A program made the position numbers and the translations under genes. DNA of 52,646 bases, taken from an uncultured Verrucomicrobiota bacterium (GTDB taxonomy: Bacteria; Verrucomicrobiota; Verrucomicrobiia; Limisphaerales; UBA9464). Position 1 is the stretch's first letter, and each line of letters opens with the position of its first letter. The DNA is taken from positions 1-52,646 of the forward strand of contig CAIWVP010000198.1 of NCBI GenBank assembly GCA_903916195.1, given 5' to 3'. The notes beneath the pieces were generated by a model that did not search any database, was not told where the DNA came from, and saw nothing but the letters and a program-made list of their open reading frames with translations. Below are positions 3,593 to 39,430 of this stretch, in pieces.

Positions 3593-5170
3593 TCAGACGG
3601 GGACGAACAGGCCAAGGCCGAAGTGGGATGCGTAGCCCAATGCCAGCGGACCGTGAAAGGGTTCCTCGAAGGTTAGTCTCAACCCGTAGAAGCAATCCTG
3701 TGGTGGTTGCTTTTCCCCAGCGCGGCGGAGGCGGACGAATCGGTGCAGATGCCGTTCGGTGATTTCGTCGCGGTTGAGCAGTTCGACTTTGGCGCTCAGA
3801 CTGCGGGAGGCGAGTTCGCTGAGCACCTGACCCTCTACGCTGTTTACGCCCCGCTTTTTGACGAAACGTGGCGGGACGAAGGGCGTGCGGCTGATCCAGA
3901 CGCGGGATGGCCCGAGCGCTTTCTTTCCAAGTAGTGGCTGGAAATTCTGGAGGCTGCCCATCCCGGCGACGGTGACAAACAGCGGTTTTTCGCCGCCCTT
4001 CATGTAGGTTTTACGCACGGCGAAAATTGCCAGTTGGGCCTGGGCGTCTATGCCCAGCGGTGCCCACAGGAGGAAATGATCGAGGCGGCCCGGCTCGCTG
4101 GCGTCGAGGTTGAGCGGGATGATGTGGAGATGCCGGTGTCCCTTCAGTGGCGTGCCCGCGGTGTCTTTGCCGGTGAGCACGGGACAGGCGACGGGCAGCC
4201 CATTGCCGACTTTGCTCGCGAGGGACCGATGCAGTAGTTCGGCTTGCGGGAGCGCTCGGGAAAGAAGGGGCAGCACCTCATGCCGGCGGGTGTCGGAGGC
4301 GAGGGCGAGCAGGACGGCTTCGACGGGTTTGGTTTCGATGCCGGAGCGCGCCGTCCGCGCGGGTGCGGTGGTGAGGCTGTGCGAGGGCCGCCAGTAAAGC
4401 ACTCGGCGACTGCCGGGCGGTTGGCTCCAGCCATGAATTTGTAAGAACGAGGTGTCGCGCGTCAGGCAATCGAAGAGGTCCGTGGGATAGGGAGCGAGGG
4501 CGGTGGCACGTTTATTGAGGAGCGCGGTGGCGGGTTTCTTTTTGCCTTCCGGCAAAGGATCGGCGGCATCGACCTGGCGGCTGAATTCCTCGAACAGGCG
4601 CGCGTATTCATCCGCCGAGGTGGGTGCGAGCAGGGAGGTTTGCTCCCATCCCGGCCCCTTGCTCATACCGTCCGTGTGCGGTGTCATGTGATGATCGTCC
4701 GGCACGTCGGGCGTCGACGGAATGAACCGGCCTTCGACCCAGCTTTCGGCACGGCCGAGGTATCCCATCGCGCCGACGATTTGGTTCAGCAGTTCGAGAC
4801 AAACCTCATCGAGTTCCACCGCCCAGGACACGATGAGCGGTTCCGCGCCGGGCACCGCGCAGGTATCGAGAACCAGCGTCGTTTTGCCATCCTTGCCGCC
4901 GAGCGGCATGTAGTGGCGACTGTGCGTGGCGGGGCAAGGCGCGGCGAGGTAGCTCGGCGTCTGCGCCGCGAGCGCGGCGACCAGCTTGCGAAGCGGATGC
5001 TCCAGCGGCACCGGATCGGTCACGCCGAGCTTGGTGTAAGCCGTGGCGATGAAGGCGCGCACGAGCCGCCACGGGCTGGGTGGCCACTCGACGAGCCCTT
5101 CATTGACGTGATGCCCCCACGGCGTGGCGTGATAGCGCCCACCGGGAAAGCGGAATTCGATGTGGATCAT
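3593..5170 (-). CDS. csb2: Csb2 (Cas5/Cas6-like subunit of type I-G Cascade)
   Basis: This 525-residue protein begins MIHIEFRFPGGRYHATPWG and contains EWPPSPWRLVRAFIAT, both typical of the GSU0054/Csb2 family. It ends with a glycine-rich loop, LALGYASHFGLGLFVPV, like the C-terminal G-loop of Cas6-type RAMP proteins. In type I-G systems this single protein is thought to do both Cas5 work (holding the crRNA 5' handle) and Cas6 work (cutting pre-crRNA). That fits the absence of a separate cas6 here and the strong hairpin in the repeat. The gene starts 5 bp after the csb1 stop, so translation is probably coupled. Which residues cut RNA cannot be read from the sequence. Confidence 0.93.
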   Translation of the reverse strand: MIHIEFRFPGGRYHATPWGHHVNEGLVEWPPSPWRLVRAFIATAYTKLGVTDPVPLEHPLRKLVAALAAQTPSYLAAPCPATHSRHYMPLGGKDGKTTLVLDTCAVPGAEPLIVSWAVELDEVCLELLNQIVGAMGYLGRAESWVEGRFIPSTPDVPDDHHMTPHTDGMSKGPGWEQTSLLAPTSADEYARLFEEFSRQVDAADPLPEGKKKPATALLNKRATALAPYPTDLFDCLTRDTSFLQIHGWSQPPGSRRVLYWRPSHSLTTAPARTARSGIETKPVEAVLLALASDTRRHEVLPLLSRALPQAELLHRSLASKVGNGLPVACPVLTGKDTAGTPLKGHRHLHIIPLNLDASEPGRLDHFLLWAPLGIDAQAQLAIFAVRKTYMKGGEKPLFVTVAGMGSLQNFQPLLGKKALGPSRVWISRTPFVPPRFVKKRGVNSVEGQVLSELASRSLSAKVELLNRDEITERHLHRFVRLRRAGEKQPPQDCFYGLRLTFEEPFHGPLALGYASHFGLGLFVPV

Positions 5171-5175
5171 AACGC

Positions 5176-8444
<3,269 letters not shown>

Positions 8445-8462
8445 ATCGGCGGGGTTCTCGGC

Positions 8463-11177
8463 TTAGTGAGCGTCCGGGTGGCTGTTGGCGGGTGGCGCTT
8501 CGGCCGCAGGTGGTTCGGTGGCCGAGGATCGCGAGGCGCGGATGTCGGCGGCGCGCAGCAGCGCTTCGAGATAGGCGAGGGCGAAGGGTCCGTGCGACTG
8601 GAGCAGGCCGGCGACGCGCTCCGACCAACTCGCCCCGGTGCGCAGCGAAAGCCCGATGCGCGCGGGCTCCAGATGCAGCGATACCTCCGGGACAAGAGAT
8701 TCGCGGCCATCGGCAGCCGTCACGAGCAGCGCGGGGATCGAATCGCCTTCCCGGACTCCGTGAATGGGGAGGCCTCGGCCATCGCGATCCCGATACTCCT
8801 GATCGGCAGGCGCGGAGTGCCACGCGCCTCGGACTTTGCCGTGATGCGCGCAGTCGAGGTAAGCGAGCAAGTCGAAGGACGGCTGATCGAGATCGAGGAT
8901 GTCCTGCTCCGGCGCCGTTGGCGGAACCTCAGAGGATGCCGCAGCGAGCGTTTTGCCAAGCGCGGCGAGCAATTCCCGATGGTTGCCGAGCAGCGCGGGA
9001 TGCTGCGGCGCGTGGCGTTCCAGCACAGCAAAGAGCGCCAGCGCGGTCGCAAGCTCATGGCGGAAGCCACGGCGGCGCTCGCCGTCGGGCAACTGGTAGA
9101 GTTCACGTAGAGGCCGCCATGCGTTGGAGGGTGCTTTGGCGACATCAGACGTTCCGGGGTGATGCTGCGCATTGGTGAAGATGCAGCCTTGGAACGCAGG
9201 ATGACCTTTACCGAAGTCATGCCAGCGCGCGCCGGTCTGCAACACGCGCGTCACGGCTGCCGGAAGCCCAATTTTCGCGACCATCTCTCCCACCACACGA
9301 GCGACATGCCCGCCATGCACCGCAATGGATTCCCAAGCGCGTTGACTGGTGGCCTCCGATTCTACGGTTACATCGGCGGCGCGCCGATCCGTCAGGGACA
9401 CGACAGCAGCGGCCACGGCAAAGGCGCGATCAGCTGCTTCGCCCGTCCAGCCCACCGTCACGTCATAACCACCCGCATCGTGCGCCACGAGAATGGTCTG
9501 CCCCGGATAGATGTCCTCCTTGCGACAACTCCGCCATGCGTCATCCAGATAGTCCCAGACCCACGCCTTGCTCTTCCCCCCACCCTTGGTGAGCCAGTCG
9601 CGCGCGTCGCCGATGGAGACCGCGCAAAGTTCCTCGCGAATGGCTTTGACCGCACGGTCGGGCACCGTGCGCGGCTCGACATCGCGCCAGAAAACGAGCA
9701 CATCGCGCTCTTCCCCGCTGCGAATAAAACGGCTGATGTCGAGATCGGCGCCCGAGAGATCGGGTGTGGTATCGACGAGTTCCTCCAACTCGCGCCGCAG
9801 CAGCAAATGCTTCGGTGCATAGGGGAAGAGCAGCGGGATCAGTTCTGCGTGTTCCTGCTCAAACGCGGAGAGCCCCGCGAGCGAAGCATCCGGCACGAAA
9901 GCCAGGGCCTCCCGTGACGCCTCGAGTTCACTAAGCTGATAAGGCAGCGCCGCCTTTTCCGAAAGATTTCGATCCACGACAAAGAGCGTCGCCGTCCCGC
10001 CGTAACGCGCCGCCCGTCCGAAACGTTGCACGAGACTCGGCCACGGGGCGAGTTCGGCAAAGAGAGTCGTCGCGGAAATATCGACGCCCGCCTCGACCAC
10101 CTGCGTGGCCACGATGATACGGTCGGCCTCGGCATTGCAGGCCGCGCGCTGGAGAAATTTCCCGCGCCATTCCTTGCGCTCCATCCCGCGAAAACGGCTG
10201 TGAATCAGGCGGAGTTCGACCGTCTTGTTTTTGGCCTTCCTGCTCAGCCCCTCCAGCGTCGCATAGACTTCGCGCGCCGTGCGGACGGTATTCGCGATGA
10301 TCAGCGTGATGCGGCCGTATTCGCCCGCCGTGCTGGCGAGATGCGCTTCCCACGCCTTCGCCGCCCAGGCCTTCGTGTCTTTGAGCGGGAGGCGCGAACA
10401 CGGTTTCGAGAGCACCCACGGGCCGCCTTCTCTTTCCTCCGTGACAATGCGAACCAAGCTCGTCCGCAGACCAGCGACCATCTCACGGGTATCCGCACTC
10501 TCCAGCCAGGCCGGCTGCAGTGTGGCGCTCATCCACCAAGTCACGCACGGACGAAGCTGTTTCCCGGCGAGATGGTCATCGCGACGGAAGGCTTGGAGTT
10601 GAGCCGTCGTCGCAAGTCCGACATCCATTAACTGCACCTCATCAAGCGTCCAGAGACAGTCCTGATTCAACAACCCAAACTCCATCGGCCAGCGAGCACG
10701 AGACGACGAATAGCCGCGATTCAGCGCCTTGCTCAGTAGCATGTCCTGCGTGCCGATGAGGATGGCGTCGCGCTCAGGGTGGATGTCCCAGTCGCCCGAA
10801 TCTTCGCCGCCCATGAGGATGTGGACGCCAACTTTGCCTTCATGCGGCCCATGTCCATCCCACCGCAGTCCGCCGAGCCACTTCTCGACTTCATCACGCG
10901 TCTGCTCGACGAGCGTCCGCATCGGGAGGCAGTAAACAAGGCGACGAGGCCAGCGATCCGACTTCAGATGAACACGGTTCCACATCCACGCGAGCACCAC
11001 GGCAGCGGTTTTGCCTAAACCGGTCGGGATGGAGATCAACTGGGACTGGCATGTTGTTCCTTCCGTCAGCGTCTCCGGCCGATCCGGCTGGGCATCCGAA
11101 CCGCACGCAAGGCGGCATTGATAGCCGTGTGGATGCTGCTTCTCCGTGGCTTGGTGAAAGAACTGGTCGTAGGTCAT
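8463..11177 (-). CDS. cas3: Cas3, type I-G helicase with C-terminal HD nuclease
   Basis: The protein has 904 residues from the ATG of MTYDQFFHQAT; an in-frame TTG at 11222 would add 15 residues, and neither start has a good ribosome binding site. The superfamily 2 helicase comes first: Walker A PTGLGKT (about 51-57), Walker B DEVQ (about 179-182), motif III SAT (about 217) and motif VI QRFGRAAR (about 384-391). The HD nuclease is at the C-terminal end, with HGGHVARVVGEM and WHDFGKGHPAFQ (His-Asp about 653-654) and later His residues in FRHELATA and CAHHGKV. The helicase-then-HD order is the reverse of classical Cas3 and characteristic of type I-G. It unwinds and shreds target DNA after Cascade binding. 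It is the first gene of the operon. Confidence 0.96.
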   Translation of the reverse strand: MTYDQFFHQATEKQHPHGYQCRLACGSDAQPDRPETLTEGTTCQSQLISIPTGLGKTAAVVLAWMWNRVHLKSDRWPRRLVYCLPMRTLVEQTRDEVEKWLGGLRWDGHGPHEGKVGVHILMGGEDSGDWDIHPERDAILIGTQDMLLSKALNRGYSSSRARWPMEFGLLNQDCLWTLDEVQLMDVGLATTAQLQAFRRDDHLAGKQLRPCVTWWMSATLQPAWLESADTREMVAGLRTSLVRIVTEEREGGPWVLSKPCSRLPLKDTKAWAAKAWEAHLASTAGEYGRITLIIANTVRTAREVYATLEGLSRKAKNKTVELRLIHSRFRGMERKEWRGKFLQRAACNAEADRIIVATQVVEAGVDISATTLFAELAPWPSLVQRFGRAARYGGTATLFVVDRNLSEKAALPYQLSELEASREALAFVPDASLAGLSAFEQEHAELIPLLFPYAPKHLLLRRELEELVDTTPDLSGADLDISRFIRSGEERDVLVFWRDVEPRTVPDRAVKAIREELCAVSIGDARDWLTKGGGKSKAWVWDYLDDAWRSCRKEDIYPGQTILVAHDAGGYDVTVGWTGEAADRAFAVAAAVVSLTDRRAADVTVESEATSQRAWESIAVHGGHVARVVGEMVAKIGLPAAVTRVLQTGARWHDFGKGHPAFQGCIFTNAQHHPGTSDVAKAPSNAWRPLRELYQLPDGERRRGFRHELATALALFAVLERHAPQHPALLGNHRELLAALGKTLAAASSEVPPTAPEQDILDLDQPSFDLLAYLDCAHHGKVRGAWHSAPADQEYRDRDGRGLPIHGVREGDSIPALLVTAADGRESLVPEVSLHLEPARIGLSLRTGASWSERVAGLLQSHGPFALAYLEALLRAADIRASRSSATEPPAAEAPPANSHPDAH

Positions 11178-11725
11178 GAGGAAGTGGCCTGTGGCGGCAT
11201 TTGTTGAAAGCGGAGCTACCAAATCAGGTTCAACGGTAGCCGATCTAGCCGGTCAGCCGCTTCCAGTGCTCCGAAATACTCGGACCGGCGCGGTCCACCG
11301 GTCCGCCCCCGGACGCCATGCTCGCCAAAGCCAGTGCCCTTGCACGGCCTTGGCGCGGGGCTGGTAGGCGCTCCTGCCAAGGCCGCAGGGTCACGAGGCC
11401 GTCCACAGTCCAGAGGCTGCCCAATGCCACTTTCCACTCCAATGAATGGAGGACGAATCGTCCTGGAGGCCAGCGGGTTCATTTCAGTCGGACAAGAATC
11501 CTGGGCGTTCCCAAGGTTTCATTGGTGAAGATTTACCTGGACGGTAGGACAACCGCAGTCCGAGTAAACTTATTAAATCCAGATACTTCGGAAGGGATAT
11601 ATCACCCCCGATAAGGCATCGCTTTTTTCTCCGCGCCCATCCCTCCGTGGTGCTCCAAACCGGATTGTATCCGCCGGCCCTGGGCGGAGTCGGCCAGACC
11701 CGGCTACGCCCGCAATGTCGATCCT
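11178..11725. other. Region upstream of cas3, probable cas promoter region
   Basis: This 548-bp stretch has no gene I can support. It must hold the promoter of the minus-strand cas operon, but I find no confident -35/-10 pair. A hairpin GGACCGG / CCGGTCC lies at about 11281-11303. Between about 11520 and 11640 base composition turns clearly AT-richer than anything nearby, for example TTTAATAAGTTTACT on the minus strand near 11560-11580, with no coding pattern. This AT-rich piece adjoins the broken end of the BRO remnant and may be the join of a deletion or insertion. Confidence 0.4.
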
Positions 11726-12101
11726 GCGGCCGTGAGCCGGCGAGTCCGGGGTCCTCGATCTTCTCCAACCGCTCGTAGCCGACGCGGGCGAGCCCGAGTC
11801 TGAACGGCTCTGCCTTGGGCAAAGGGATTGATGGGATGAGGCGGAGAAGCTGCTCGGTGTGTGCGGCGTGGATGGGGCGTGTCCTGCCATCGGCACCCGG
11901 CATGGCTACCAGGGGACAGTTTGTCCCCCAGTCGGCGTTCAATCCAAAGTCACGCTTTCTGAGCTTTTTGACGTAATCGTTCACCCTGGCTGTGCCAGTG
12001 AGGACGGCGATGCCATCCACGATGGCGGAACACCATTCCCCCCCGTCTTTATCACACGCCCGGCGGACGTGCTTTTCTTCAATGAGGATGAGGTTGCGCA
12101 T
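11726..12101 (-). pseudogene. BRO-N family phage antirepressor, truncated remnant
   Basis: From the ATG at 12101 about 125 codons match the pattern of BRO-N antirepressor proteins found in phages and mobile islands. EEKHVRRACDKDGGEWCSAI is followed by VDGIAVLTGTARVNDYVKKL, then LLRLIPSIPLPKAEPF and LARVGYERLEKIEDP. After roughly 11726 the frame continues but resemblance stops; the C-terminal half expected of such proteins is missing in all frames. Some conserved positions also differ (CPLVAMPGADGR in place of the usual QLKM-type core). I read it as a decayed gene from a former prophage or mobile island. The frame runs on to 11484, but that part looks noncoding. BRO-N domains bind DNA and act in phage regulatory switches. 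Confidence 0.7.
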
Positions 12102-12372
12102 GGTTTGGATGCGGCTGGTTTTTGTGCGGGAACACGGGCGGCGGCGGCGCGCAGAGCGGTTTCGAGGAAGGCGAGGCGGAACGGTGTCGGACTGGTCGGT
12201 GGCGGCAAGAAACCCTTCAGCCGGTCTTCCTGCGCGCGGGCGAAATCTTCCATGTCGTGGGCGCTCTCCGGAACCACATCCACTACCGCAACATCGTCCG
12301 CGATCGCCTCAGCGCCGGGACCGCCGCGCGCGTCGCTCGTGCAGGTCTTCGCTGGGCTCGCGACAAGCACCG
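12102..12372. other. Intergenic region with no supported gene
   Basis: Between the BRO remnant and hairpin element A there are about 270 bases with no recognisable gene, repeat or promoter. The long open frames that cross it on both strands are GC-driven shadows. Confidence 0.4.
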
Positions 12373-12561
12373 GCCGCGATTGGAGGTGGCGGGCATACGT
12401 AGCGCAGACTGGTAGTCTGCTGCCGTGTCGCCGGCGGGTAGCCGGCCAGGGCGTCGGCGATCTGTTCGCCCTGGAAACATCAACGCCCAGCGGGTTGCCA
12501 ACCCGCGATACAGCAGACTGGCAGTCTGCGCTACGAGTGTCCGCCGCTTCGGCTCGCACCC
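12373..12561. repeat. Hairpin-array repeat element, copy A
   Basis: This 189-bp element is a chain of small hairpins: GCAGACT-ggt-AGTCTGC (12404-12420), CGGC-gggta-GCCG (about 12432-12445), GGCGA-tctgt-TCGCC (about 12456-12470), CGGGTT-gcc-AACCCG (12491-12505) and GCAGACT-ggc-AGTCTGC (about 12514-12530). Its ends, GCGATTGGAGGTGGCGGGCA on the left and GTGTCCGCCGCTTCGG then CTCGCACCC on the right, are imperfect inverted copies of each other and match the ends of copy B at 16639-16847. The right ends of A and B agree at 21 of 25 positions. It lies about 85 bp upstream of the next gene. No transposase is encoded, so it would be non-autonomous if mobile. Confidence 0.75.
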
Positions 12562-15474: not shown

Positions 15475-16545
15475 TCAGCGATGGCCGGCGATATCGGCTT
15501 CCGTGAAGGTGGCTCGGCGGACGACGCGCCGCTCGTCGGAGGTGAACACGACATGGATCTTGCCGTCACGCGTCTGGATGGCCGTCGGATAGCCGTAGTC
15601 GCCCTTCGGATCGGCCAGCAGGTCACGCTTGTGCGGGAAGGTCTTCGCCCCGTCCGTCGAGAGCGCCACGGTGAGCGGCGTGCGGTCGGAGAAGCTGTCG
15701 TTGTAGACGAGAAGGTGGTGGCCGTTCTGGAGGCGCAGGAGATCCACGGCGGCGTTCGGGTTCGGGAACGCCGAATCGACGCCGTCGCTCCAGGTCTTGC
15801 CGCCGTCGGACGACTCCGTCCGGACCATCCAGCCGTCCAGACGCCCGCTGTAGTCGCCGCCGCGTCGGCAGAACGCGACCAACCGCTCGCCCTCGATCAC
15901 CGCCGGCGCCGGCTGGAGGTTGCCGAGACGCGACCGGACGCGGCTCGACTCGGTCCACTTCCGGGTCCGCGGATCATGGCGAAGGAAGAACGAGGTGCAG
16001 TCCTTGCTGGTCGTCTCCGGGTCATCGCCCACCTCGTGGTAGACCGGCAGCAGATAATCGCCGTCCGCGAGCACGATGGGCCGGTTCCGGACCATCGTCC
16101 CGGCCTCGAAGGTGAGCGCGAACGGTTCCGACCAGGTCCGCGCGCCGTCGCGGGAGATCTTCGCGGTGATCCGGGAGGTGTCCCAGGTCTCGCCGTGGCG
16201 GGTGACGTAGAAAAGCCAGACCACGCCGTCGGGTGCTTGCCAAGGAACGGCGTTGCCAAGCGCATGGAACGGGTCGCGAGCGATGGCCACCGGACGCGTC
16301 CACTTCTTCGCGCCGCGCTTCAATCGGGATCCGTAGACCGCCGCGGCGGCGTCCTTGTACTCGCCCTTGCCGCTGAAGAACGCGACGTAGAGGTCGCCGT
16401 CCGCCAGTTCGGTGATGCTCGCCGGATGCTTATAGTCGCCGGTGGCGATCTCGGGACCGAAGAGCCGGTCGATGCGGAGCCCGTCGGCCAGCAGCCAGCG
16501 GCATGAGCATGCGAAGGCGAGCAAGAGGAGGAATCGGAGGCGCAT
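15475..16545 (-). CDS. Exported sialidase-family (BNR repeat) protein
   Basis: The protein has 356 residues with an N-terminal signal peptide (MRLRFLLLLAFACSCRWLLA). The fold is a six-bladed beta-propeller with Asp-box motifs SRDGARTWSEP, SSDGGKTWSDG and STDGAKTFPHK, and segments such as MVRNRPIVLADGDYLLPVYH that are typical of exo-alpha-sialidase-like enzymes. The family removes or binds terminal sialic acid or related sugars; many environmental homologues have lost or changed specificity, so the substrate is not certain. It is the first gene of an operon with the LamG lipoprotein. The 350 bp upstream contain hairpin element B and separate it from a divergent hydrolase gene. Confidence 0.85.
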   Translation of the reverse strand: MRLRFLLLLAFACSCRWLLADGLRIDRLFGPEIATGDYKHPASITELADGDLYVAFFSGKGEYKDAAAAVYGSRLKRGAKKWTRPVAIARDPFHALGNAVPWQAPDGVVWLFYVTRHGETWDTSRITAKISRDGARTWSEPFALTFEAGTMVRNRPIVLADGDYLLPVYHEVGDDPETTSKDCTSFFLRHDPRTRKWTESSRVRSRLGNLQPAPAVIEGERLVAFCRRGGDYSGRLDGWMVRTESSDGGKTWSDGVDSAFPNPNAAVDLLRLQNGHHLLVYNDSFSDRTPLTVALSTDGAKTFPHKRDLLADPKGDYGYPTAIQTRDGKIHVVFTSDERRVVRRATFTEADIAGHR

Positions 16546-16638
16546 GGACGGACGCTACCGGTCCGCCGTTGCCGATGCCAACCCCCGGCTCGCGCGGCGG
16601 ACATGCCGGACGCACGGCCCGGGCGACGCCTTCATCCC

Positions 16639-16847
16639 ACGACCTGGGTGCGATCAGAAGTGGCGGACACGGCGGCTGGAAGTGGCGCAGACTGGTGGTC
16701 TGCGGTATCGCGGATCTGGAATCCGCAGGCGCTGCGGCAGGTGGGATGGCCGGTCTTGCCGACGTCCTGCCGAGTGCAACTCGGCGATACGGCAGATTGA
16801 AGATCTGCGCTACGAGTGCCCGCCACTTCCGATCGCACCCACGACCT
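16639..16847. repeat. MITE-like hairpin-array element, copy B, with 7-bp direct repeat
   Basis: The element proper is about 16646-16840. Its left end reads GGGTGCGATCAGAAGTGGCG then GACAC; its right end is the inverted copy (GTGCCCGCCACTTCC then GATCGCACCC), with about 23 of 25 positions paired. The 7-mer ACGACCT stands immediately outside both ends (16639-16645 and 16841-16847), as expected of a target-site duplication. Inside are successive hairpins: GCAGACT-ggt-GGTCTGC (16687-16703, one wobble), GCGGATctggAATCCGC (about 16710-16726), CCGAGT-gca-ACTCGG (about 16770-16784) and GCAGAT-tgaag-ATCTGC (about 16792-16808). It encodes nothing. It sits between the divergent sialidase and serine-hydrolase genes. 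The remaining flanks (16546-16638 and 16848-16894) show no other feature. Confidence 0.78.
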
Positions 16848-16894: not shown

Positions 16895-18136
16895 ATGCGA
16901 ACGAAAGTCACTGGCCCGATCGTTGCCCTCGCGCAGCTTGTCCTCATCTCGGCGGCCTTGGCGGCCGGGCCGTTGCCGGTCGTCTCGCCGGCGCGGGCCG
17001 GATTCGATCCCGGACGGCTGGACCGGATGCACGGGTACGCGCGCGGCCTGGTCGCCGATGGCAAGTATCCCGGCCTCGTCACGCTGGTCGCCCGCGACGG
17101 CAAGATCGTGGAGTGGCAGAGCTTCGGGGAACGCGCTCCGGGCGTGCCGCTCAAGCCGGACGATATCTTCGCCATCGCCTCTCTCACCAAGATCGTCACC
17201 ACCGTCGGCGCGCTCGTGCTGGTCGAGGAGGGCCGGCTCGGCATCGACGACCCGATCGCGACGCATCTTCCCGAGTTCAAGGACCAAAAAGTTGCGCAGG
17301 GCAGCCCGGCGCCATTCGCGCCGCCGGTCGATGCCGTGCGACCGATCACGCTCCGGCATCTGCTCACGCATACCGCCGGGCTTAGCGGATCCACCCCGTT
17401 GAAGGATGCCGACATCCCTCTGCCCCGCCGTGTCGACGGCGATTTCACGACGTTGGCCGACATGACCCGCGAGCTCGCTGCGCACACTCTGCAGCACCAA
17501 CCCGGCGAGAAGTGGGTGTACGGCCCGGCCACGGACGTGCTCGGCCGGTTGATCGAGGTCGTGTCCGGCAAACCGTTCGACGTGTTCCTCGACGAACGGG
17601 TGCTGCGTCCGCTGAAGATGCGCGACACATCGTTCGCCGTGCCGCCGTCGAAGCAGGCGAGACAGGTGACGATGCACGTGCGCCAGGCGGACGGGTCGTT
17701 GGCGGCGATGGCACCGAAGCCGCGGCAGCATCCGTGGCCGTCCGGATCGGGCGGGCTCTCCTCGACGCCGGCGGATTACGTCCGCTTCGCCCAGATGTTG
17801 CTCGATGGCGGCGAACTCGACGGCGTGCGGATCCTCGGCCGCAAGACGGTCGAGCTGATGACGCAAGACCATCTGCACGGCCTGGCCAAGCCGACCAAGA
17901 TCTATCCGGTGACCGATGGATTCGGTTTCGGCGTCGAGATCCGGAGCGACGTGGCGCGCTCCGGTTGGCTCGGATCACAGGGCACCTACGGCTGGAACGG
18001 CGCGACCACGGCCTATTGCAGCATCGACCCGAAGGAGCGGCTGATCGCCATGGTCTGGGCGCAGCACGCACCCAACGCCGAGTTCCAGCTCTACGAACGT
18101 TTCAACAATCTCGTCTATCAGGCGCTCGTCCGGTGA
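16895..18136 (+). CDS. Exported serine hydrolase, class C beta-lactamase-like
   Basis: The protein has 413 residues with a signal peptide (MRTKVTGPIVALAQLVLISA). The serine beta-lactamase/penicillin-binding fold is shown by SLTK (Ser96, Lys99), Tyr209 in WVYGPATDVLG, and a late GWNGA motif where classical enzymes have KTG. LRHLLTHTAGL and PGEKWVYG are hallmark segments of the broad beta-lactamase-related family (COG1680), which includes esterases and D-aminopeptidases. The altered third motif argues against true beta-lactam resistance; an esterase or peptidase acting in the periplasm is more likely. The gene appears monocistronic, downstream of hairpin element B. Confidence 0.88.
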   Translation: MRTKVTGPIVALAQLVLISAALAAGPLPVVSPARAGFDPGRLDRMHGYARGLVADGKYPGLVTLVARDGKIVEWQSFGERAPGVPLKPDDIFAIASLTKIVTTVGALVLVEEGRLGIDDPIATHLPEFKDQKVAQGSPAPFAPPVDAVRPITLRHLLTHTAGLSGSTPLKDADIPLPRRVDGDFTTLADMTRELAAHTLQHQPGEKWVYGPATDVLGRLIEVVSGKPFDVFLDERVLRPLKMRDTSFAVPPSKQARQVTMHVRQADGSLAAMAPKPRQHPWPSGSGGLSSTPADYVRFAQMLLDGGELDGVRILGRKTVELMTQDHLHGLAKPTKIYPVTDGFGFGVEIRSDVARSGWLGSQGTYGWNGATTAYCSIDPKERLIAMVWAQHAPNAEFQLYERFNNLVYQALVR

Positions 18137-39048: not shown

Positions 39049-39430
39049 GCGAGACGCCGGCTGCGGGTGCGATCCGAAGCGGCGTCCACAGGATCTGGCA
39101 CGGCACGGGTCCAAAAAAGCTCGAGCGAGAGGATCTGGAGAGTCGGAAAAAAAGGGGCTTTTCTTGGTCCTTTCCTGTCTTCGTGCTTTGCGGCTCCATT
39201 TTCTCCACAGAGCAAGTCGCACCCCGCAGCATCGCGGTCCGGCGATCCGCAGAGGCTGTCCCATTTCGCTCGTTCAAGCTTCGTCGCCCCCCGGCCTCGT
39301 CCGGCTCGGCGAGACACCCGAGCAAAAACCGGCGCCACAAGCCGTCCGCCACTTCCGATCGCCCGCGGCCATCAGGAGACATCGCTTGCGGGGCTTCCAT
39401 GCGGCCAATACGGTCCATTCCACCTTCCTC
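39049..39430. other. Intergenic region, possible third hairpin-family relative
   Basis: This gap upstream of the FG-GAP gene holds GCGGGTGCGATCCGAAGCGG at 39063-39082 and its imperfect inverted copy (CCGCCACTTCCGATCGCCCGC) at about 39346-39366. These resemble the ends of the elements at 12373 and 16639, but the core between them is different, with A/T runs (AAAAAAA near 39145) and no hairpin chain. No flanking direct repeat was found. No gene is seen; the gene downstream probably uses a promoter in the A/T-rich part. Confidence 0.35.

Follow-up and report, generated by a model that had tools for sequence, protein, structure and literature searches.

A REP-like four-hairpin repeat between ISKra4-type ends in an uncultured Verrucomicrobiota bacterium: a probable composite non-autonomous transposon

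The small mobile DNA of bacteria includes REP and REPIN repeats and the MITEs of DDE transposons, and these two groups are usually considered apart. The element described here has features of each. The ISKra4 family (p-MULT 4, Mutator superfamily; PMC3942029) and its MITEs have GGG-starting ends of about 24 bp and a 9-bp target duplication, as does the present element; in addition, its ends agree at 19 of 24 positions with those of an ISKra4-family insertion sequence (L171), and the genome has a dead transposase copy enclosed by the same ends. The window element differs from that family in having no transposase and in carrying an apparently foreign four-hairpin repeat as its interior. This repeat shares with the GTAG REPs and REPINs and their RAYT transposases (PMC3733652, PMC3116915) the GTAG tag, the short-stemmed hairpins, the inverted doublets that form a larger hairpin, the compensatory changes, the tandem arrays and, at one locus, a RAYT-like gene between copies. 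Unlike a REPIN, it has two hairpins in each half, four in total, with conserved TGTATC and GATACA linkers, and whereas REPINs lack a target duplication, the unit here often lies within DDE-type ends and a duplicated target. The TIRtrons or TIRYT-associated repeats (PMC3733652) likewise combine terminal inverted repeats with stem-loops, but theirs flank tyrosine transposases, while the ends here match a DDE transposase and duplicate their target. In the literature searched, no paper was found on ISKra4 MITEs that carry REPs, and none but PMC3733652 on REPs in Verrucomicrobia. The parts are known in kind, and their combination is new and unreported in that literature.

The window, which is the whole 52,646-nt stretch of DNA analysed, holds a copy of the element between two genes that point apart. 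The neighbours are a BNR-repeat protein (15475-16545, minus strand) and a beta-lactamase-domain protein with its ATG at 16895; the intergenic setting was checked at this site. The first-pass annotation had described terminal inverted repeats of about 25 bp with about 23 positions paired, and the arms at 16645-16670 and 16816-16841 bear this out, being 26 nt each and 92% complementary. Comparison across the family sets the true ends at 16646 (GGGTGCGATC...) and 16840 (...GATCGCACCC). The left terminal inverted repeat, GGGTGCGATCAGAAGTGGCGGACAC (16646-16670, plus strand), matches the ISKra4-family ends of L171, and the right one (16816-16840, minus strand) has the reverse complement GGGTGCGATCGGAAGTGGCGGGCAC. 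The chain of small hairpins claimed for the interior was also found. Four perfect or near-perfect hairpins are present on the plus strand: GCAGACTGGTGGTCTGC (hairpin 1, 16687-16703), GCGGATCTGGAATCCGC (hairpin 2, 16710-16726, with a conserved TATCGC linker before it), GCCGAGTGCAACTCGGC (hairpin 3, 16769-16785), and GCAGATTGAAGATCTGC (hairpin 4, 16792-16808, followed by a CTAC tag at 16810-16813). The strand folds at -123.6 kcal/mol, compared with -92.2 +/- 5.0 for shuffled sequences (z = -6.2). In alignments, the four-hairpin unit of most copies opens with a GTAG tag on its 5' side, of which GTGG at 16682-16685 (plus strand) is a degenerate form; the complete unit spans 16682-16814 on the plus strand, covering positions 1-135 of the covariance model R1. 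The window element is short and non-coding, with terminal inverted repeats and multiple copies, as is usual for a MITE. An integron attC site was considered and rejected; read by eye, the ends GGGTGCGATC...GATCGCACCC lack RYYYAAC and GTTRRRY cores. Nothing matching the window element was found among plasmid records.

The element belongs to a large family in its own genome (G000). BLAST adds dozens of copies, most of them 73-87% identical, and the full-length ones start and stop at or near the positions that match 16646 and 16840. With up to three mismatches, the end pattern GGGTGCGATCNGAAGTGGC has 218 matches in this genome, compared with 9 for a reversed control. Facing end pairs number 66 within the 282 kb of sequence examined. 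The commonest element size is 194-196 bp, other classes measure about 282 bp, 446 bp and 533 bp, and minimal elements of 89 bp (C54:18836, C6:4224) consist of two ends and one hairpin. Numerous contigs of the genome terminate within these elements or arrays. Two further elements lie in the window. One (12372-12561, minus strand) has the same ends, the left one decayed, and an interior of subfamily B with hairpins GCAGACTGCCAGTCTGC, GCGGGTTGGCAACCCGC and others; it has no recognisable target duplication. The other (39065-39366, plus strand) is strongly decayed, 302 bp long with three mismatches in each end, and gives a weak R1 match at 39206-39338. Elsewhere in the window are a type I-G CRISPR-Cas locus (3593-11222, minus strand; Cas56g, Cas7g, Cas8g and Cas3g by PADLOC models) with a repeat array at the window start (4-550; repeat GCTTCAACGGGGCCGCGCTCTTTCGAGCGCGGAGATG, period about 73 bp), and an open reading frame (11484-12101, minus strand) that matches the PADLOC candidate defence model PDC-S13 (E 9.8e-36) and adjoins the element at 12372-12561.

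Some copies are more complex than the one in the window. The interior unit occurs in arrays at C67, C155, C206 and C81, with a spacing of about 210-300 bp. The three-unit array at C67 has full ends on the outside only and is flanked by TGACCGAA on the left and TGACCGAA on the right, so that the array as a whole acts as a single element. Inside one end pair, the hairpin unit is repeated in tandem at L041 (G000 C67:13611-14278), L044, L049, L033 and L035, a pattern that resembles satellite-like growth within a MITE; several contigs stop inside such arrays. At L080 (G000 C5:45900-47232), facing and correctly oriented ends surround a biotin synthase-like gene, named by eye, without a duplication; they are read as two decayed elements. 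A cargo-transposon reading of the ends around bioB (C5) and glcD (G003 C67) was rejected, as the halves resemble decayed separate elements and no duplication is present. An apparent pair at C67:6640-7379 encloses a small gene, PhnA-like by eye, beside an ordinary copy; this pair was also set aside, as its left end is spurious.

The family duplicates 9 bp of target DNA on insertion, and the 7 bp of the window copy are atypical. The repeat ACGACCT does stand directly outside both ends, at 16639-16645 and 16841-16847, as the first-pass annotation had claimed; its length, however, is not the family norm. The flanks of 48 elements were compared after removal of array-internal units and two spurious pairs. 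Identity between the left suffix and the right prefix is highest at 9 bp (0.50, compared with 0.29 for mispaired flanks), and at lengths of 5-7 and 11-12 bp it is at background. At this length 9 of the 48 pairs are at least 85% identical, where mispairing gives an expectation of 0.00. Together with the excess of end-pattern matches over the control, this shows that the element is not a product of chance. Two explanations fit the window copy: it is a variant, or its duplication had the usual 9 bp, CCACGACCT, and two C were then lost from the C-run of the right end; CCCACGACCT is present twice here, at 16636-16645 and 16838-16847.

Empty sites in a relative of the same genus (G003) confirm that the element was inserted, in agreement with the proposal that it is a transposed non-autonomous element. 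Both refuting outcomes named in the first-pass annotation were checked and did not occur, since other copies are numerous in the genome and the orthologous empty sites carry the duplicated target once. The orthologue of the window locus has flanks that are 91-93% identical, lacks the element and contains CACGACCT once; about 30 bp elsewhere in the left flank also differ. The joined-flank query against this genome covered 2,506 bases, C42 and C58 excluded, and found contiguous element-free sites for six more elements (C54, C103, C148, C170, C179 and C186). Those for C170 and C54 are clean, and C170 shows a single GGCTCGAAGTC. The sites for C148 and C179 have small indels or mismatches nearby, and at C103 and C186 the target itself has diverged. 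The joined flanks of C105, C138 and C40 had no contiguous match in G003. One target is occupied in both genomes, by a 533-bp element in G000 (C183:7266-7798) and a 281-bp element in G003 (C361:2758-3038), reflecting either a shared insertion that later changed internally or two insertions at the same place.

The ends of the element match those of an ISKra4-family insertion sequence found elsewhere in the order. The statement that no transposase in the window would move the element holds, and the only trace of one in its own genome is dead. The NCBIfam ISKra4 model (NF033572) has a single weak match there, a C-terminal remnant at C184:14784-14933 (E 5e-9), and degenerate copies of the same ends surround this remnant (L148, about 1272 and 1700-1718). 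L171, from another family of the order, has the ends GGGTGTGATTAGAAGTGGGTGAGA and GGGTGCGATTAAAAGTGGGTGAGA, spans 1,435 bp, and carries a perfect 9-bp duplication, TTGGAAATG. The 19/24 match to the MITE end holds at both of its ends, and these are the two best MITE-end matches among 196,776 positions in 29 ISKra4 loci. Its transposase scores 185 bits with NF033572 (curated cut-off 205; next best ISLre2, 63.7) and is closest to the own-genome remnant, at 53% over 51 amino acids. Nine A in a row separate two reading frames of L171, an arrangement described for the ISMich2 group (PMC3942029). Because its score is under the cut-off and the A run recalls that group, L171 is assigned to ISKra4 at the level of the family and to no subgroup. 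Three other ISKra4 loci (L167, L168 and L183) have GGG ends and perfect 9-bp duplications. The direct repeat of the ISKra4 family is 9 bp. Neither the own genome nor the genus yielded an intact transposase bounded by exactly these ends; the search found only the G000 remnant and a fragment in G003, and the ISKra4 copy of G006 has different ends. From its ends and its 9-bp duplication, the element appears to be an ISKra4-family derivative, and its predicted mover is a transposase of that family.

The modular interior noted in the first-pass annotation has turned out to be an independent and widespread repeat. The unit is 135 bp long and has the layout GTAG-[hairpin]-TGTATC-[hairpin]-spacer-[hairpin]-GATACA-[hairpin]-CTAC. 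In full-length copies it is enclosed directly, so that the order is end, GTAG, hairpin 1, TGTATC, hairpin 2, spacer, hairpin 3, GATACA, hairpin 4, CTAC, end. There are two subfamilies with distinct hairpin sequences, and the window has one of each, at 16646-16840 and 12372-12561. As in GTAG REPs and REPINs, the tag lies beside a short hairpin, copy number is high, the hairpins form inverted pairs, and the window site is intergenic. The unit is broader in distribution than the ends and exists independently of them. Of the 58 relatives, 24 have matches to the R1 model, with other families of the order represented among them, and in G000 the model matches at least 57 times. The end pattern, by contrast, is shared among these relatives by G003 only, besides the own genome. 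The unit occurs without these ends in G000 (C176, C93, C23) and in two genomes of the same genus, G002 and G004, and around most of these loci nothing end-like was found even at seven mismatches.

A RAYT link for the unit is suggestive. A RAYT-like gene at C176 (NF047646, E 5e-22, 78.3 bits; cut-off 80) has the unit on either side, in tandem with a 239-bp period. Among the RAYT-like loci returned for the genus, this is the only one that the unit flanks, and the RAYT loci of the genus were rejected as a general source of the unit. The ends, for their part, have probably enclosed REP-like hairpins more than once, since in a Verrucomicrobiales MAG (UBA12295, L211) the same ends surround a GTAG hairpin pair unlike the present one, and the target duplication is again 9 bp, GGGTGCGAC. 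They also surround another GTAG-hairpin interior at C179. The duplication of the L211 copy (1451-1737) resembles the start of an end, and this copy may have inserted into another one.

The element is very probably a composite non-autonomous transposon, in which a GTAG/REPIN-type repeat was captured inside an ISKra4 MITE. The outer 25 bp on each side would be the ends of an insertion sequence of the ISKra4 family (DDE, Mutator superfamily), and ISKra4-family transposition would have spread the element through the genome and produced the 9-bp duplications. The supplying transposase would no longer be intact in the assembly, one eroded copy being left. The interior would be a complete GTAG-tagged repeat of the REP/REPIN kind, with two inverted hairpin pairs, a short spacer, and no transposase leftovers. 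Its dispersal without the ends suggests that it was mobile in its own right, and its first multiplication was most likely the work of a RAYT tyrosine (HUH) transposase with single-stranded hairpins as its substrate. Once between the ISKra4 ends, the unit would have travelled as a passenger and been partly amplified into tandem arrays.

Two other origins keep the DDE ends and explain the rest differently. In a plain ISKra4 MITE, the hairpins would have arisen inside by palindrome formation and tandem growth, and the end-less units by loss of the ends. The coexistence of interiors with and without ends in one genome and the arrays within one end pair agree with this origin, but it is unlikely, given that many units occur in genomes and families without the exact end pattern (G002, G004, G036, G042, G051 and others) and that unrelated GTAG hairpins lie between the same ends elsewhere. 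Alternatively, the ends could belong to a different DDE family with an active element and 9-bp duplications, the likeness to ISKra4 being convergence. Several families make 8-9-bp duplications, and an intact ISKra4 transposase with just these ends is absent from the assembly. The end match of L171, and the dead ISKra4 remnant that lies between these ends and is closest to L171, speak against such a source and leave it with little probability.

The covariation of the stems bears on whether the unit is instead a structured RNA (a non-coding RNA, attenuator or terminator) that is selected in the transcript and carried by the MITE as a passenger. The fold is very strong and so is the covariation. 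Across 20 copies the four local hairpins are 93-98.5% paired. A long-range alternative, in which hairpin 1 pairs with hairpin 4 and hairpin 2 with hairpin 3, was tried and rejected, as it gives 82.6% paired with 13 double changes compared with 92.2% and 42 for the local hairpins, which are therefore favoured. Over 21 units, end-less ones included, 97.4% of cells are paired and there are 72 double-sided changes, compared with 22 +/- 4 in shuffles. At several stem positions three or four Watson-Crick types occur, and unpaired cells are absent or very rare there. Selection on RNA tolerates G-U pairs, but only 6 G-U cells were found among the changed hairpin cells of these units. The covariance model also scores both strands nearly alike (118.3 and 98.9 bits for the window unit), and no Rfam family reaches threshold, the only match, MIR1437 at 29.5 bits with a gathering score of 168, being dismissed as chance. 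An RNA role is on these grounds highly improbable. The covariation suggests that palindromes are kept up at the level of DNA, through replacement or copying of whole hairpins. More tentatively, and less likely than not, the unit may form a class of its own among the palindromic mobile repeats of Verrucomicrobiota, spread as single strands by an HUH transposase and in this lineage also as double strands by a DDE transposase, the tips of its hairpins being replaced or copied as whole palindromes, with near-perfect covariation arising without selection on RNA.

A captured REPIN-type repeat within an ISKra4 MITE would connect two kinds of mobile DNA. Here a REP-type repeat is nested in a DDE MITE in dozens of copies, and differing hairpin interiors lie between ends of the same kind. 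If this reading is right, ordinary insertion-sequence machinery can redistribute REP clusters, and such redistribution may help to explain the patchy and species-specific spread of REPs. The order-wide unit, with up to four Watson-Crick types at a stem position and almost no G-U, also provides a data set for studying how palindromes are maintained in DNA.
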